A stretch of 28,440 bases of DNA from the IMG/VR virus record IMGVR_UViG_3300005062_000016, positions 1-28,440 of that record; one strand, 5' to 3'. The DNA is from a virus. Below are positions 3,572 through 15,656 of this stretch, in pieces. Made by a program: the position numbers and the translations under genes. The notes under the pieces were generated by a model. The model did not search any database and was not told where the DNA came from. It saw only the letters and a program-made list of their open reading frames with translations. Positions within the stretch are counted from its first letter, which is position 1. Each line of letters begins with the position of its first letter.

Positions 3572-3898
3572 CTACGGACGGCTTTCCTTTGGCGCGTCCT
3601 GCTTTTCGGCGGGACGCTGCTGTTCGTCCTGGGTCTGGGCATACGCCTTGAGCACCGCGTTCATGAGGGTCTGCCAGCCCTTGCCTTTGGCCTTGTACCA
3701 TCTGAGCACTTCGGCATCGATGCGCATGGAAACGGGCTCCTTGGGCTTCGGCAGCAGATCCTGCACGCGCATCATCACGGCCTGGCCCAGGTCTTCGTCG
3801 GTCCAGGGCTGGGCGTCCGGATCAGCCAGGGCTGCACGCTGCACGTCCTCTTCGCTCATGGCGCGGACCTTCTTGAGGTCACTCCTGGTGGGCTTCAT
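3572..3898 (-). CDS. BrnA-like antitoxin, no adjacent BrnT
   Basis: The chosen start ATG (3896-3898) gives 108 residues; a longer open frame back to 3988 would overlap the preceding gene and lacks support. The core VSMRIDAEVLRWYKAKGKG followed by WQTLMNAVLKAY is the ribbon-helix-helix signature of the BrnA antitoxin family (PF14384), which normally binds the RNase toxin BrnT (DUF497) and represses the operon. No BrnT-like ORF lies next to it. It is the third gene of a minus-strand operon behind a HigB/HigA-type pair, 46 bp after the antitoxin stop. The C-terminus is a short glutamine- and lysine-rich tail. It could act as an operon repressor, a neutraliser of BrnT encoded elsewhere, or a relic. 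Confidence 0.75.
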   Translation of the reverse strand: MKPTRSDLKKVRAMSEEDVQRAALADPDAQPWTDEDLGQAVMMRVQDLLPKPKEPVSMRIDAEVLRWYKAKGKGWQTLMNAVLKAYAQTQDEQQRPAEKQDAPKESRP

Positions 3899-3944
3899 AT
3901 GCCTGCCTCTCTTTCTTGTTGGCCCGGCGCGGCGAATGCTGGGT

Positions 3945-4265
3945 TCAGAGCCGGGCTTCCGTGCCTTCAGCGGAAAGGCGCAGTCCAACAGCCTTGAGCA
4001 CGGCGGAGAGTGTCTTCAGGGTGGGGTTTCCCTTGGGGGAAAGGGCGCGGTAAAGCGTTTCGCGTTTGATTCCGGCAGATTCGGCCACGGTCTGCATGCC
4101 ACGCGCCTCGGCAACGTGACGAAGCGCGATGAGCAGCGCCGTGGGGCAGTCCGCATTGTCTTCAAGACTGGCCTTGAGATATTCGGTCGCCAACTCCGGA
4201 TCGGCGCGCAGCATCTTCACTGTGGCACTGTCATGGGAGACGCTGGGAGAGTGCTTTTTGGTCAT
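3945..4265 (-). CDS. Antitoxin, HI1420/HigA-like HTH protein
   Basis: This 106-residue protein matches the addiction-module antidote family typified by HI1420 (TIGR02684). It contains a DPELATEYLKASLEDN segment, then a Cro/C1-like HTH (about residues 52-80, VAEARGMQTVAESAGIKRETLYRALS) and the family ending GNPTLKTLSAVLKAVGLRLS. It is expected to bind and block the toxin encoded just upstream and to repress the shared promoter. The start at 4265 overlaps the toxin stop as ATGA, and on the minus strand AAGGAG lies about 7 bases before it, inside the toxin gene, so the two are translationally coupled. Toxin-before-antitoxin order is normal for this family. Confidence 0.88.
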   Translation of the reverse strand: MTKKHSPSVSHDSATVKMLRADPELATEYLKASLEDNADCPTALLIALRHVAEARGMQTVAESAGIKRETLYRALSPKGNPTLKTLSAVLKAVGLRLSAEGTEARL

Positions 4266-4585
4266 GGCTTTCTCCTTTTGAAATCGTTGAAAAATTCCAC
4301 GGCCCGTTCGATATCCGCACTCTGGGTGCTTTTGTCGCCTCCGCAGAGCAGCAACATGATCACTTCGCCCACGCGGGCGAAATACACGCGATAGCCGGGG
4401 CCGTAGTGGATACGCATTTCACAGACGCTTTCCCGGACGGCTTTGGAGTCGCCCAGGTTCCCGGATTCCATGCGGTCAATGCGGGTCAGGATTCTGGCCT
4501 TGGCGCGCACGTCGCGCAGGCTGCCCAGCCAATCCGCGAAGACATCTCGTCCCTCTTCGGTCTGGTAGTGCTCCACTTTGTACAT
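4262..4585 (-). CDS. Toxin, HI1419/HigB-like (RelE superfamily)
   Basis: The 107-residue basic protein fits the phage-derived addiction killer family typified by HI1419 (TIGR02683, RelE/HigB fold), which cleaves mRNA on ribosomes. Family landmarks are the N-terminal VFADWLGSLRDVRAKARILTR, the central NLGDSKAVRESVCEMRIHYG, then GYRVYFARVGEVIMLLLCGGDKSTQ and the C-terminal helix DIERAVEFFNDF. Catalytic basic residues are probably among the arginines and lysine of these blocks. It is the first gene of the minus-strand operon. No Shine-Dalgarno sequence precedes ATG 4585, and the best promoter puts the transcript start at or beside this ATG, so leaderless translation is possible. Confidence 0.88.
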   Translation of the reverse strand: MYKVEHYQTEEGRDVFADWLGSLRDVRAKARILTRIDRMESGNLGDSKAVRESVCEMRIHYGPGYRVYFARVGEVIMLLLCGGDKSTQSADIERAVEFFNDFKRRKP

Positions 4586-4590
4586 GCTTA

Positions 4591-4619
4591 TTTGTAGCTT
4601 TTAATTCACAAACGGTCAA
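4591..4619 (-). promoter_or_regulatory. Candidate promoter of the toxin-antitoxin operon
   Basis: Read on the minus strand, TTGACC (4614-4619) and TACAAA (4591-4596) are separated by exactly 17 bases and resemble sigma-70 -35 and -10 boxes. Transcription would start near 4584, essentially at the toxin ATG. Confidence 0.55.
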
Positions 4620-4748
4620 GGGCGGCGCGAGAAAAAAGTGGAAAGTGAAGAAAGAAAGCCTGTTGCAGGTGTCGAAACTGTGCAGCTTTGTGGTGAACAG
4701 ATGAAACTAATCGTCGATTTCTTTTCATTGAGGGCAAGGCGGTTTTTC

Positions 4749-4778
4749 TTGACGCTGGTCGCGGCATGGGGCAAACAT
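4749..4778 (+). promoter_or_regulatory. Candidate promoter of the c4-like immunity operon
   Basis: TTGACG (4749-4754) is a near-consensus -35 box. An 18-base spacer leads to aaacat (4773-4778), a weak -10. The predicted start near 4785 falls immediately before the first arm of the structured RNA (4788), which is what an antisense RNA made from its own promoter would need. The -10 match is poor, so this is tentative. Confidence 0.4.
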
Positions 4779-4784
4779 GGAACA

Positions 4785-4950
4785 GGAGCTGGTAACTCCT
4801 TGATCCAACGGCGGCCCCACGCCCGTCAGACATCGTGGGATTTTTGCTTTCCAGCCTCTGGAAAGCGGCTCGGCATTTCCAGCCGGGTGTGGGACGAATA
4901 CAAGACCCTTTGGGGGAACACTCCCGCCGTCCGTTGGCGGTTACCAGCAC
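4785..4950 (+). ncRNA. c4: C4-like antisense RNA controlling the antirepressor operon
   Basis: The region folds into a multi-branched RNA visible by eye. The closing helix pairs 4788-4796 (GCTGGTAAC) with 4940-4948 (GTTACCAGC), 9 perfect pairs. A second helix pairs 4805-4811 (CCAACGG) with 4931-4937 (CCGTTGG). Inside are a hairpin 4816-4821/4834-4839 (CCCACG/CGTGGG), a 9-bp hairpin 4846-4854/4858-4866 with a 3-base loop, and a short one 4867-4870/4881-4884. The 3' strand 4930-4946 is also complementary to 4982-4998, the ribosome-binding site of the next ORF, at 14 of 17 positions in two blocks. In phage P1, C4 RNA has two blocks (a', b') that bind the icd-ant leader in the same way, and the same gene order follows. 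Exact ends and processing are inferred. Confidence 0.8.
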
Positions 4951-4981
4951 CCGGCCTTTGTCGATGGTACGGCAAGGGCAA

Positions 4982-5000
4982 TGGTAAAACCCAACGGAGG
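4982..5000 (+). promoter_or_regulatory. Antisense target: ribosome-binding site of the icd-like ORF
   Basis: TGGTAA (4982-4987) and CCAACGGA (4991-4998) are the complements of 4941-4946 and 4930-4937 in the c4-like RNA, with a three-base mismatch between them. The second block contains the GGA of the Shine-Dalgarno GGAGG (4996-5000), seven bases before ATG 5008. Pairing would block initiation of the small ORF and, through coupling, of the antirepressor. Confidence 0.75.
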
Positions 5001-5007
5001 TTCCGTC

Positions 5008-5277
5008 ATGGAACGCACAAGCATCCTCTTTCCTCTTTCCGAACTGGACGTTCTGCGCGGCAAGGCCGCCAATGTGGAAGCCGGACTGCGCTGTCTGGCC
5101 GCATTGCTTTTCGAATTGGGCGTCAGCGGGCCTGCCCGGGAGAGCGGTCGGCTCATGGGTCTGGCCGCGCTGCTGCGCACGCAGGCGGACCGGACCGCGG
5201 AACTGCTCGATCCCCTGGACGCGGAGTACCGTCTGTCCGGGGAGCGCTCGCCGGGCGGTGAGGGACGCCATGTCTGA
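5008..5277 (+). CDS. Small icd-like leader protein coupled to the antirepressor
   Basis: This 89-residue protein starts at ATG 5008 with GGAGG at 4996-5000. An in-frame ATG at 4981 lies upstream of the ribosome-binding site and is rejected. The sequence is mostly helical, with an amphipathic pattern (SELDVLRGKAANVEAGLRCL, then LMGLAALLRTQADRTAELLD), and has no recognised catalytic motif. Its place between a c4-like RNA and an antirepressor, with its last 8 bases overlapping the next start (5270), matches icd of P1, a 73-residue protein whose translation is required for ant expression. Whether it inhibits cell division like Icd cannot be told from sequence; similarity is positional only. Confidence 0.8.
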   Translation: MERTSILFPLSELDVLRGKAANVEAGLRCLAALLFELGVSGPARESGRLMGLAALLRTQADRTAELLDPLDAEYRLSGERSPGGEGRHV

Positions 5278-5995
5278 ACTGCTGCCCTTTGACTTTGACG
5301 GCAATGCGGTGCGCGTTGTCCTGCGCGAGGACGCGCCCTGGTTCGTGGCCAAAGACGTGTGCAATGTGCTGGACATCTCCGACCATCATCAAGCGGTTGA
5401 ACGCTTGGATGATGATGAAAGGGGTAGGTACAGTATACCCACCATAAAAGGCCTTCGTGAAGCCAAGGTGGTTTCCGAGTCCGGTCTGTACGCCCTGATC
5501 TTCACCAGTCGCAAGCCCGAGGCCCGGCGCTTTCGCCGCTGGGTCACGGGGGAGGTCTTGCCGTCGATCCGCCGCACCGGCGGATACGGGCGGCCACCCC
5601 TGGCCGCTGCCGTGGGCGGGCTGCCGTCCGGGTTGCGGGCTAAGGCCATGCACGCGGCTGTGCAGGCCGTGCGACTGACCGGGGGGACCGAAGCCGACAT
5701 CGAGCGGCTCTTCGTGACCTATTGCGGCTGGCTGTCCATGGAGAAGCCGCGACTGCCCGCGCCGGACTGGACCGGGCAACTGGAGCGCTGGATCAGCCGC
5801 CATCTGGACAGGACCAACACGGCCAGCACAAAATCCATGAGACTCTATGAGCATTTCAAAGGCTTTTTGCGGGAGCAGGGCTGGGACCAGCCCATGCCCA
5901 GCGTCCGGGTTTGGGGCGAGCACATGAACGCGCGCTTCCGGCGGATCAAGTCCGACCGGATGCGCTACTACGTAAGCTTGCGGGAGGACGAATGA
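5270..5995 (+). CDS. BRO-family antirepressor
   Basis: The ATG at 5270 gives 241 residues beginning MSELLPFDFDGNAVRVVL; a longer frame from 5072 is only the reading frame through the preceding gene. Residues about 5-105 form a BRO-N domain (PF02498) with the hallmarks APWFVAKDVCNVLDI, VSESGLYALIFTSRKPEARRF and RRWVTGEVLPSIRRTGGYG. Phage antirepressors with this domain bind and inactivate the prophage repressor. The C-terminal half (KSMRLYEHFKGFLREQGW then VRVWGEHMNARFRRI) resembles the winged-helix end of phage primase/antirepressor proteins. The gene overlaps the small icd-like ORF by 8 bp and terS by 4 bp, so it stands at the junction between immunity control and late genes. Confidence 0.88.
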   Translation: MSELLPFDFDGNAVRVVLREDAPWFVAKDVCNVLDISDHHQAVERLDDDERGRYSIPTIKGLREAKVVSESGLYALIFTSRKPEARRFRRWVTGEVLPSIRRTGGYGRPPLAAAVGGLPSGLRAKAMHAAVQAVRLTGGTEADIERLFVTYCGWLSMEKPRLPAPDWTGQLERWISRHLDRTNTASTKSMRLYEHFKGFLREQGWDQPMPSVRVWGEHMNARFRRIKSDRMRYYVSLREDE

Positions 5996-6666
5996 CGCTG
6001 AAACAGGCGGCGGAAGCGGGAGCCGGGGGCGACCCGGCTCCGCAGCAGGGGGGGCGGACCTTCAAGACCCAGCTGGAGGCCGTGGACTTTCTCACGGCTC
6101 AGGGCTTTAAGGTGGGCAAGAGCAAGTTCAGTAAGGACGTGCGGAGCGGGCGCGTGGCCCCTGGTGGAGAAGGCGTGTTTGAGGCTGGGGTGCTGCTGGC
6201 CTATGCGGCCACGCACCTGACCCCGCTGGCCCGGGCCGAGGACCGGGCCGGGAACCAAGCCGCAACCCAGAAGATCGCTGCGGATGCGGACCTCAAGGCC
6301 GTGCAGGCAGAGCGCATGCGCCTCAAGCTCCAGAAGGAGCAAGGCCTGCTCATGCCGCGCGCGGAGCACGAGGAGGCTCTGGCGGCTAGGGCGCAGTTCT
6401 TCAAGTCCGAGGTGGAAGGCTTTATCCACCGCGCGGGCGCGGACTTGATTTTACTACTGCGCGGGGACGAGGCCCGCTTTCCGGAGCTGGTGAATTGGTG
6501 GGAGGAAAAGACCGCGGAATGGATGGATGCCTGGAGCGGGGACCGGGAGTTCGGCGTGGCGGACGCGGAGCTGAGCGCTGGGGGTTTTGGGCCAGACCAA
6601 ACGCAGACGGAGATCGGGCCTGACCGGGATTCGGAATTTGCCAGCGGGCCGGAGACTGGGGCATGA
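5992..6666 (+). CDS. terS: Terminase small subunit, Nu1/DUF1441-like
   Basis: From ATG 5992 the protein has 224 residues and overlaps the antirepressor stop as ATGA. Residues about 22-60 (FLTAQGFKVGKSKFSKDVRSGRV) look like the winged helix of Nu1-type small terminases, which recognise the packaging site. A charged helical stretch follows (about 85-125, AADADLKAVQAERMRLKLQKEQG then LLMPRAEHEEALAARAQFF), the usual oligomerisation region. The acidic, glycine-rich C-terminus is probably the contact with the large subunit, encoded immediately downstream with another ATGA overlap. The earlier in-frame start at 5911 would run inside the antirepressor gene and is not supported. Confidence 0.85.
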   Translation: MTLKQAAEAGAGGDPAPQQGGRTFKTQLEAVDFLTAQGFKVGKSKFSKDVRSGRVAPGGEGVFEAGVLLAYAATHLTPLARAEDRAGNQAATQKIAADADLKAVQAERMRLKLQKEQGLLMPRAEHEEALAARAQFFKSEVEGFIHRAGADLILLLRGDEARFPELVNWWEEKTAEWMDAWSGDREFGVADAELSAGGFGPDQTQTEIGPDRDSEFASGPETGA

Positions 6667-8504: not shown

Positions 8505-8710
8505 GCGAGACCGCGTTGGTGGGCATGGCCGAGATTTGCGAGTACGTGCGGCGCAGCGACGCCACCGTGCTCAAGTTGATCCGGGATGAGGGGTTTCCGG
8601 CAAAGAAAATTGGTGGTATTTGGGAGTCGGATAAATTATTGATAGATGAGTGGCGAGTGCAGGTACTTCGGTGTTCCGAAGTGAAAGGAGCAAATCAGCG
8701 GGGTCACTGA
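8498..8710 (+). CDS. Small HTH (excisionase/MerR-like) protein
   Basis: This 70-residue protein has one winged-HTH unit: MAEICEYVRRSDATVLKLIRD, then GFPAKKIGGIWESDKLLIDEW, the pattern of AlpA/Xis-type DNA-binding proteins. Its place directly behind terL suggests a packaging or late-gene accessory role rather than excision. The ATG overlaps the terL stop, with AGGGGG upstream. Base composition turns from GC-rich to AT-rich inside the gene at about 8600, continuing into the AT-rich gene that follows. The last 15 codons may therefore have been altered when the foreign segment arrived. A 7-bp inverted repeat (8665-8671/8676-8682) sits near the 3' end. Confidence 0.75.
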   Translation: MVSETALVGMAEICEYVRRSDATVLKLIRDEGFPAKKIGGIWESDKLLIDEWRVQVLRCSEVKGANQRGH

Positions 8711-8730
8711 TATTGGTTGCAGGGAATAAT

Positions 8731-9693
8731 ATGCAAAAAATAAATTCGCTTTTGCTTCCAACAAATTTTCCAACTTTGAATGCGATAAAGTCATGCAAAG
8801 ATAATTTGTGTGGATATGAACCAGAATTTTGGGAGTTTTTTTATGAGGCTAATAGGTACTTAGAACGTGTTGACATTGAGACACTTTCAGAAAGGTATCG
8901 AGCTCTGTTGAGAAATCTTACATGCCTATCAAGTAAAGAACGGGATGTTATCCCTCGACAATCCACGTTAAGCTCTTGGTATTGGTTCATTAAAGAACAC
9001 CAAACACGGTATGAATTTTTTCTCAGGGGAGAACCATTGCCGGTAGAGCCTCCCGCAGGTGTTGTATGCAACGAGCATGTTGATGCTCCGCTACGCCCCA
9101 GAACACTTAACGGAACGGATGTTATTTTTCGAAACTGCAAACAACAACATGCAATCTCTTTGGTGGAGAGAGGTGGATTACGGATTTGGCCCGCCTCAAA
9201 ATATAGTGAACTTGAAGGAGACAAAGCAAGAGCGGACGATGAGTTAAACAAGTCGGTTTTCTGGTCGGGTGCTAAAATTAAGATCACAACACAAAGCGGC
9301 AATGAGATTCCTGTTCTTGGGAATTTTGAGCGTTTAACATCTATGCATGACTATTACACATATTGCACTTCATGCAATTTTGTCTCTGAATTGAAAAATG
9401 AATGTGGCGGTGCATGTGTTGTTATCAATGATGTTGCTAAATTTTCTAATCGTTTAAATAATGCTATCAATAAAATACTAGACAATTGGTATGATTTTCA
9501 TTGTCCTGTGCAATACTATGATCCGTATGACTGCCCCCCAAATCAACAAATTGACACGGCTATGTATAAAGATTTTAAATTTGCGTATCAACAAGAATAT
9601 CGTTTTATTTGGATACATATGGAAGGTGTCGAAGCTGCTGGTTACTTGGATTTGGAATTGGGATGTCTGTCCGATATTGCTCAGTTATTATGA
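8731..9693 (+). CDS. AT-rich accessory gene (moron) of unknown function
   Basis: The ATG at 8731 (AGGGA at 8721-8725) gives 320 residues; a GTG frame back to 8650 lies inside the HTH gene and lacks a ribosome-binding site. Base composition is strikingly AT-rich compared with both flanks. The N-terminal 110 residues look helical (EPEFWEFFYEANRYLERVDIETL). The C-terminal half has landmarks seen in uncharacterised proteins of mobile elements: GGLRIWPASKYSELEGDKARADDE, ACVVINDVAKFSNRLNNAI, VQYYDPYDC and FAYQQEYRFIW, ending in a LDLELGCLSDIA strand. That plan recalls DUF2971-like proteins, but this is a weak resemblance. There is no signal peptide or membrane segment. Its place between packaging and head genes suggests a cargo gene expressed late or in the lysogen, possibly in defence. 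Confidence 0.8.
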   Translation: MQKINSLLLPTNFPTLNAIKSCKDNLCGYEPEFWEFFYEANRYLERVDIETLSERYRALLRNLTCLSSKERDVIPRQSTLSSWYWFIKEHQTRYEFFLRGEPLPVEPPAGVVCNEHVDAPLRPRTLNGTDVIFRNCKQQHAISLVERGGLRIWPASKYSELEGDKARADDELNKSVFWSGAKIKITTQSGNEIPVLGNFERLTSMHDYYTYCTSCNFVSELKNECGGACVVINDVAKFSNRLNNAINKILDNWYDFHCPVQYYDPYDCPPNQQIDTAMYKDFKFAYQQEYRFIWIHMEGVEAAGYLDLELGCLSDIAQLL

Positions 9694-15276: not shown

Positions 15277-15656
15277 GGCTTTGGGGCACGCTGGCCGGGA
15301 AGATTCTGGGCTTGGTCCCCTTGAAGTGGTGGCTGGCCGGGATGGGGGCGTTGTTGCTTTTGGGGAGCGGGTATTGCGGGTTGCGTTGGCAACTGGCCGA
15401 AGCGGAGATCGTGCGGCTGGATGCACGGGCGACGCTGCTTGCAAAGGAACGGGACCTGGCAAGGGCTGACCAGGATGCGCTGCGCCTGCAACTGGAAACG
15501 GCGCAGGCGGACTTTGCAGCCCATGTTGCCGGGATAGCAGAAGATAGAAGACGTCTTGCATTGGCGATTGAACGGCCCGCAATACCGGGCAGGGTGGTGG
15601 ACGATGCGACAAGTGAATGGGCTTTGGATCGCCTTGATGCTTTGCTGGTTCGCTAG
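15273..15656 (+). CDS. Rz-like inner-membrane spanin
   Basis: ATG 15273 overlaps the previous stop as ATGA and gives 127 residues. One N-terminal membrane segment (about 18-36, KWWLAGMGALLLLGSGYCG) is followed by a long charged helix (about 40-95, QLAEAEIVRLDARATLLAKE, then RDLARADQDALRLQLETAQA), the N-in, C-out type II plan of Rz i-spanins. With its lipoprotein partner it would bridge and fuse inner and outer membranes, so the host must be Gram-negative. The longer open frame upstream (from 14955) is a shadow of the DUF5675 gene. The i- and o-spanin genes overlap out of frame by 53 bp. Confidence 0.8.
   Translation: MRLWGTLAGKILGLVPLKWWLAGMGALLLLGSGYCGLRWQLAEAEIVRLDARATLLAKERDLARADQDALRLQLETAQADFAAHVAGIAEDRRRLALAIERPAIPGRVVDDATSEWALDRLDALLVR

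Follow-up and report, generated by a model that had tools for sequence, protein, structure and literature searches.

An sRNA-Xcc1-Type RNA in a Putative C4-Type Switch on a Phage Antirepressor Operon

A stretch of viral DNA (IMG/VR record IMGVR_UViG_3300005062_000016, 28,440 nt, the whole of which is called the window here) very probably carries an RNA switch of the C4 type on the operon of a phage antirepressor, in which an antisense RNA would silence a Shine-Dalgarno (SD) site and a leader upstream of it would act through termination or as a decoy (Table 1). Comparative evidence supports this assignment through the family of the RNA, the complementarity of its blocks a' and b' to a leader pair (a1/b1) and a target pair (a2/b2) with covariation in both, a conserved terminator-like hairpin, and the antirepressors that appear to be its targets. 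From these we infer processing of the RNA, a block of translation, a termination or decoy role for the leader, and control of lysogeny. The best supported mechanism is repression of the first ORF through SD pairing, by which the antirepressor would be silenced through its overlap with that ORF. A previous sequence-only reading had proposed the c4-icd-ant logic of phage P1 for this locus, and the proposal is supported by covariation in more than 100 relatives, by the antirepressors that usually lie downstream, and by a leader common to P1.

Table 1. Elements of the proposed switch in the window
Feature	Positions	Strand	Evidence
Presumed leader promoter, -35-like hexamer TTGACG	4749–4754	+	Sequence; CTTGAC retained in most close relatives
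Leader hairpin AGGAG-c-TGGTAA-CTCCT, loop exposing block a1 (TGGTAA, 4790–4795)	4784–4800	+	Stem covaries in 51 leaders; a1 covaries with a'
Block b1 CCAACGG (4805–4811), then conserved CGG	4805–4814	+	Pairing of loop with upstream block across loci
Intrinsic-terminator-like hairpin CCCACG-cccgtcagacat-CGTGGG-ATTTTT with conserved loop CCCGWYAG; putative leader attenuator	4816–4845	+	Terminator counts, covariation, model R1
Hairpin GCTTTCCAG-cct-CTGGAAAGC	4846–4866	+	Present in close relatives (alignment A3); folds
sRNA-Xcc1-type antisense RNA (RF02221 match); predicted mature RNA ~4882–4960	4881–4964	+	cmscan 49 bits, E = 1.3e-7
Closing stem, 5' strand GCCGGGTG	4882–4889	+	Pairs with CACCCGGC at 4948–4955
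Hairpin-1 core ATACAAGACCCTTTGGGGGAA, conserved	4898–4918	+	RF02221 match, core-pattern scans
Hairpin 2, loop bearing b' (CCGTTGG, 4931–4937)	4926–4941	+	Pairs with b1 and b2; covaries
Single-stranded block a' (TTACCA)	4941–4946	+	Pairs with a1 and a2; covaries
Hairpin 3' of the RNA, third a-like block TGGTA (4965–4969)	4957–4978	+	Covaries with a' in close relatives
Target block a2 (TGGTAA)	4982–4987	+	Sequence; pairing of a'b' with a2b2
Target block b2 (CCAACGG, 4991–4997), overlapping SD GGAGG (4996–5000)	4991–5000	+	Duplex of a'b' with a2b2
89-aa ORF occupying the place of icd; probable translational coupling with the antirepressor	5008–5277	+	Counterpart in L252
Bro-N antirepressor, 241 aa	5270–5995	+	PF02498 E = 4e-23; PHROG anti-repressor Ant E = 4.4e-49

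The Predicted Antisense RNA Is a Borderline Match to sRNA-Xcc1

A permissive Rfam scan of 4600–5300 gave one strong match, to RF02221 (sRNA-Xcc1) over its full length, and positions 4882–4955 hold the features of that family: an AUACAA-ACCC-GGGGAA core within hairpin 1, a closing stem and hairpin 2. The window copy is borderline for RF02221 (49 bits against a cut-off of 53 bits), though all structural features are present, and no match was returned for the window at Rfam gathering cut-offs; its relatives L046 and L107 score 63.7–63.9 bits, above the cut-off. The C4 model (RF01695), by which the RNA might have been recognised as the sequence-only reading expected, scores 68.8 bits on P1 and has no match at E ≤ 10 in the window record, so that the RNA is assigned to sRNA-Xcc1 instead. 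The description “C4-like” holds for the blocks, the overlapping short ORF and the leader shared with P1; for the family it does not. The c4-2 model (RF02944) was unmatched in the window and at every sRNA-Xcc1 RNA in the 30 records searched, the c4-a1b1 model was unmatched in the window, and isrK (RF01394) was not among the matches up to an E of 10 across 4600–5300. Matches to DUF3800-XI (minus strand, 4913–4946, E = 0.03) and to the sR30 snoRNA were discarded as weak. BLASTN of 4755–5290 against named phages gave no match.

Positions 4788–4948 had been taken for one strongly structured RNA. Folding of 4785–4950 bears out the stability (z = −4.7, with none of 200 shuffles equally stable), and the single unit resolves into two, a leader (4784–4845) and the antisense RNA (~4882–4960); the strong pairing of the 5' and 3' arms is pairing of leader a1b1 with antisense a'b'.

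The Predicted Target Site Overlaps the SD of an 89-aa ORF

The antisense arm 4930–4946 pairs with 4982–4998 at exactly 14 of 17 positions, as had been reported, and the best of 200 shuffled targets reached 13. The predicted duplex of a'b' with a2b2 has an energy of −25.9 kcal/mol, matched by none of 300 shuffles. The leader blocks TGGTAA and CCAACGG do duplicate the two target blocks, the 89-aa and BRO ORFs do share 8 nt, and the Pfam match of the latter agrees with its earlier identification as a BRO-N antirepressor. No Pfam or PHROG family was found for the 89-aa ORF, and a peptide-pattern search with it found no relative; it is very probably a real gene, because direct comparison with the ORF at the same place in L252 gives 65% identity over 72 aa (E ~1.6e-26). 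The short ORF overlaps the antirepressor in the window and in its close relatives L252, L248 and L271; in L263 the antirepressor is itself the first ORF.

Seven loci (L248, L252, L263, L271, L325, L135 and L145) can be aligned with the window across the entire element (alignment A3). The block pairs in this alignment differ (b' is, for example, CCGTTGG, CCTCTGG, CCTGTTG or CCTGTGG) yet fit their own b1 and b2, and the third a copy, in the hairpin 3' of the RNA, tracks a' in most of them (TGGTA, TCGTA, TAGTA) and is missing in L252.

Pairing Is Conserved across the Family While Its Sequence Varies

The core pattern ATACAANACCCNNNNGGGGAA occurs in at least 120 viral and at least 118 genome stretches. 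Among the matches listed, 156 non-redundant loci with the closing stem were kept, 143 of them with a definable hairpin 2 and start site; some core-pattern loci resemble chance matches or a different RNA. Downstream pairing was scored as a run of at least 7 nt between the hairpin-2 loop and the 30 nt 5' of the start codon, and the mismatched control combined loops and targets of different loci, which retains the common SD complement. By this measure the loop pairs with the SD region of the next ORF in 57% of the 143 loci, compared with 1.2% of mismatched combinations, and the pairing involves 75 different blocks across 81 loci. The covariation between arm and ribosome binding site (RBS) that the sequence-only reading had looked to is thus strong, and the locus, which it had considered an independent case, is one member of a large family (143 non-redundant loci analysed). 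The 3' block pairs with the spacer in 43% of these loci (mismatched, 4.6%), the loop pairs with an upstream block over at least 7 nt in 76% (3.2%), and the tail block pairs with the upstream region over at least 8 nt in 50% (3.5%). Twenty-seven loci retrieved with the Rfam model, not the core pattern, behave similarly for runs of at least 8 nt (downstream 37% versus 4.4%; upstream 78% versus 11%). Whole-region duplex energies and longest runs free of position limits gave a weak contrast, and position-specific tests were used instead. That the region is merely a stable hairpin (a terminator or DNA structure) whose repeats arose by duplication can hardly be right: strong folding and repeated blocks fit it, but the RNA core is conserved and the blocks vary between loci yet remain complementary, a covariation that already contradicts it.

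In the 51-kb phage record of L012 (G018), four of five sRNA-Xcc1 modules are readable, and their block pairs differ, each fitting its own target. Some modules of this phage have a near-consensus promoter (TTGACT-N18-TATAAT) just 5' of the RNA, in place of the usual terminator-like leader.

The first ORFs downstream (n = 117) encode Bro-N (21), Rha (12), AntA (11), P22_AR_C (11), KilA-N (8), ORF6N (6) and SymE (3) proteins, and their top PHROGs are anti-repressors. The first downstream ORF of X. arboricola L180 encodes SymE, and the loop of the RNA, CTTCGAG, fits the symE RBS region. sRNA-Xcc1 thereby appears, from these gene neighbourhoods and pairings, to silence antirepressors in phages across Proteobacteria. 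Of 299 genomes sampled from one phylum, about 15% carry it, a frequency equal to that of C4; many prophages, including those with several copies, thus offer a specific target that can be tested.

Seven loci (L002, L005, L020, L028, L030, L102 and L105) have the same core with a different hairpin 2, and share a similar G-rich/C-rich element downstream (GGGGGCGACCCCACCGCA in most); they are perhaps another RNA class.

A Conserved Leader Is Shared with P1

The TTGACG noted earlier as promoter-like is present, and most close relatives retain CTTGAC; a convincing −10 hexamer was not found 3' of it in the window. In 124 related leaders, TTGACN occurs ~55 nt 5' of b1 in 68%, compared with 6% of shuffles, and a terminator-like hairpin separates the upstream copies from the RNA at 97 of 124 loci, compared with 24% in locally shuffled sequence. 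Covariation is seen in both the a1 hairpin and the terminator when 51 leaders are aligned, with 83 cells changed on both sides (30 in shuffles) and a covariation score of 0.494 (shuffled, 0.178; slid controls, at most 0.13); compensatory changes occur at all five pairs of the terminator stem. The conserved positions in alignment A4 include the CGG after b1, the loop CCCGWYAG and an RYGYCC after the T run, some of which recur in P1. Pairing of the CGG after b1 with the 5' strand of the terminator, as an antiterminator, was unconvincing (48%, against 35% in mismatched pairs). A sigma70 signal between leader and RNA was not found in general (4% versus 2%), and the RNA therefore most likely derives from read-through.

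A covariance model of the leader (R1), whose E-values are rough, matches the window at 4776–4853 (E = 1.8e-10, the window being part of the training set), finds the leader in most viral sRNA-Xcc1 loci, mostly just 5' of the RNA, and, of 30 loci kept out of training, recovers it in 27. R1 also matches P1 at 48242–48319 (E = 2.4e-5); there, GCGG, a CCGCA...TGCGG stem and TATTTTTGTGTCCG come after b1. Among nine other C4 loci, R1 matches four in the equivalent position (E ≤ 0.0013). The shared leader suggests common descent of sRNA-Xcc1 and C4 loci; it adds to the P1 c4 system a terminator-like element that is absent from the annotation of the P1 record, and it ties that system to IsrK.

Proposed Mechanism and the Role of the Leader

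In the proposed mechanism a single transcript would begin near 4785, and most transcripts would probably end at the leader terminator, giving a short RNA that exposes a1 and b1. Read-through would span the sRNA-Xcc1-type RNA and continue into the 89-aa ORF and the BRO antirepressor. The RNA, probably processed out of this transcript, would display b' on a hairpin loop and leave a' unpaired, and the two would pair with a2/b2 of the mRNA, covering the SD site and blocking the 89-aa ORF; because of the overlap, the antirepressor would be blocked too, and the prophage would stay quiet. Pairing of a'/b' with a1/b1 of the leader would probably either favour termination of the nascent transcript, as in P4, or make leaders into decoys that relieve silencing, as with IsrK.

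It is possible that the leader is the main target, the antisense RNA chiefly driving termination at the leader terminator and RBS pairing serving as a secondary lock, although we consider this somewhat doubtful. The P4 CI RNA and plasmid copy-number antisense RNAs stop nascent transcripts at leader terminators. The conserved terminator lies immediately 3' of b1, upstream copies are commoner than downstream ones in the pairing tests above, and SD pairing is absent in about a third of loci, many of them in Lysobacteraceae, Xanthomonas and Pseudomonas, with the upstream copy kept in 32 of 45 such loci. Against this, SD pairing is itself far above chance and covaries in its 75 versions, and the antiterminator alternative tested weakly. 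Eleven loci of Xanthomonas and its relatives (L126, L137, L158, L161, L167, L175, L188, L197, L199, L206 and L232) have the conserved leader with matching a1/b1, and the 600 nt downstream contain no match to the loop; this subgroup may be controlled through the leader alone or may have distant targets.

A second reading, likewise possible but somewhat doubtful, is that the terminated leader is chiefly a decoy, or sponge, that would bind the antisense RNA and turn the antirepressor on, as IsrK does for anrP. A hairpin loop of the leader exposes a1 and b1 is left unpaired, the mirror image of a'/b', and isrK lies directly 5' of the C4 RNA in G004. The Salmonella Gifsy-1 operon isrK-STnc1160-orf45-anrP resembles the present locus in its terminated leader RNA, read-through, stable RNA, small ORF, coupled antirepressor and complementary segments: there IsrK, the short leader, acts in trans to increase translation of anrP more than 100-fold, and the stable downstream RNA STnc1160 shares complementary sequence with IsrK (PMC4825925). 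It differs in that the Rfam isrK model is unmatched here and in that the published mechanism is refolding of the mRNA by IsrK in trans; moreover, extra STnc1160 did not counteract IsrK, which warns against a simple decoy model (PMC4825925). The record of L013 (G004) combines, at 6192–6276 and 15277–15365, a C4 RNA immediately preceded by isrK with an sRNA-Xcc1 RNA.

Relation to Known Systems

Silencing of the first ORF by SD pairing, the account preferred here, corresponds closely to the c4-icd-ant system of P1/P7 (RF01695; c4-a1b1, RF03163), which has the same order of a1, b1, terminator-like hairpin, antisense RNA, a2, b2 and a short ORF overlapping the antirepressor. The P1/P7 C4 RNA likewise has a closing stem, two hairpins, an antisense loop and a single-stranded block. 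In contrast, the Rfam C4 model is unmatched here, hairpin 1 is larger and contains the distinct AUACAA/ACCC-GGGGAA element, the antirepressor is of the Bro-N type, and no link between the short ORF and icd was detected. Satellite P4, with its CI RNA and seqA/seqC, also has an antisense RNA that is processed and has complementary copies on both sides (PMC4825925), but CI RNA targets replication genes via transcription termination, and the likeness is drawn from the published description.

In sequence and structure the RNA resembles sRNA-Xcc1 of Xanthomonas, which was cloned from Xanthomonas campestris (88 nt by RACE, ~100 nt by Northern; PMC2996969) and is trans-acting under HrpG/HrpX control according to the title of Chen et al. 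(2011). It has also been reported from integron cassettes that carry symE (PMC12444791) and, as a candidate effector RNA, from the vesicles of Xylella (PMC12189769). As published, sRNA-Xcc1 is an orphan sRNA that acts in trans and is linked to virulence, whereas in the window it lies on an antirepressor operon and has a local target, as predicted from pairing. That these RNAs are regulators of host or virulence genes in trans, with incidental local complementarity, is very unlikely: the title of the 2011 paper and the missing downstream pairing in some Xanthomonas copies favour it, but local pairing is far above mismatched controls, the neighbours are antirepressors or SymE, and the X. arboricola RNA pairs with the symE RBS region. 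If the main target is the next gene, predictions of distant targets, for a virulence sRNA acting in trans or a Xylella vesicle effector, would need rethinking. Our literature search returned no paper with both Xcc1 and an antirepressor; the 2011 sRNA-Xcc1 paper lay outside its scope, so earlier recognition is possible.

On the comparative evidence, sRNA-Xcc1 RNAs seem to form a second structural class among antisense RNAs of the C4 type. On balance we lean towards a broader view, in which this class would be a standard silencer of antirepressors in proteobacterial phages, and both classes would share an ancestral leader whose leaky terminator yields a short RNA with a1 and b1, able to tune the silencer or to counteract it; a single three-part RNA switch would then unite P1 c4, IsrK and sRNA-Xcc1, and SymE toxins in integron cassettes would have captured it too.

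Other Genes in the Window

Downstream of the terminase large subunit, an ORF of ~320 aa (8650–9693) without a significant Pfam or PADLOC match is possibly a cargo gene. The minus-strand region 3572–4585 contains a BrnA-type antitoxin ORF (PF14384, E = 3.6e-18), for which no toxin partner was recognised, beside a pair comprising a Gp49/HigB-like toxin and an HI1420-type antidote, and is divergent from the antirepressor operon.
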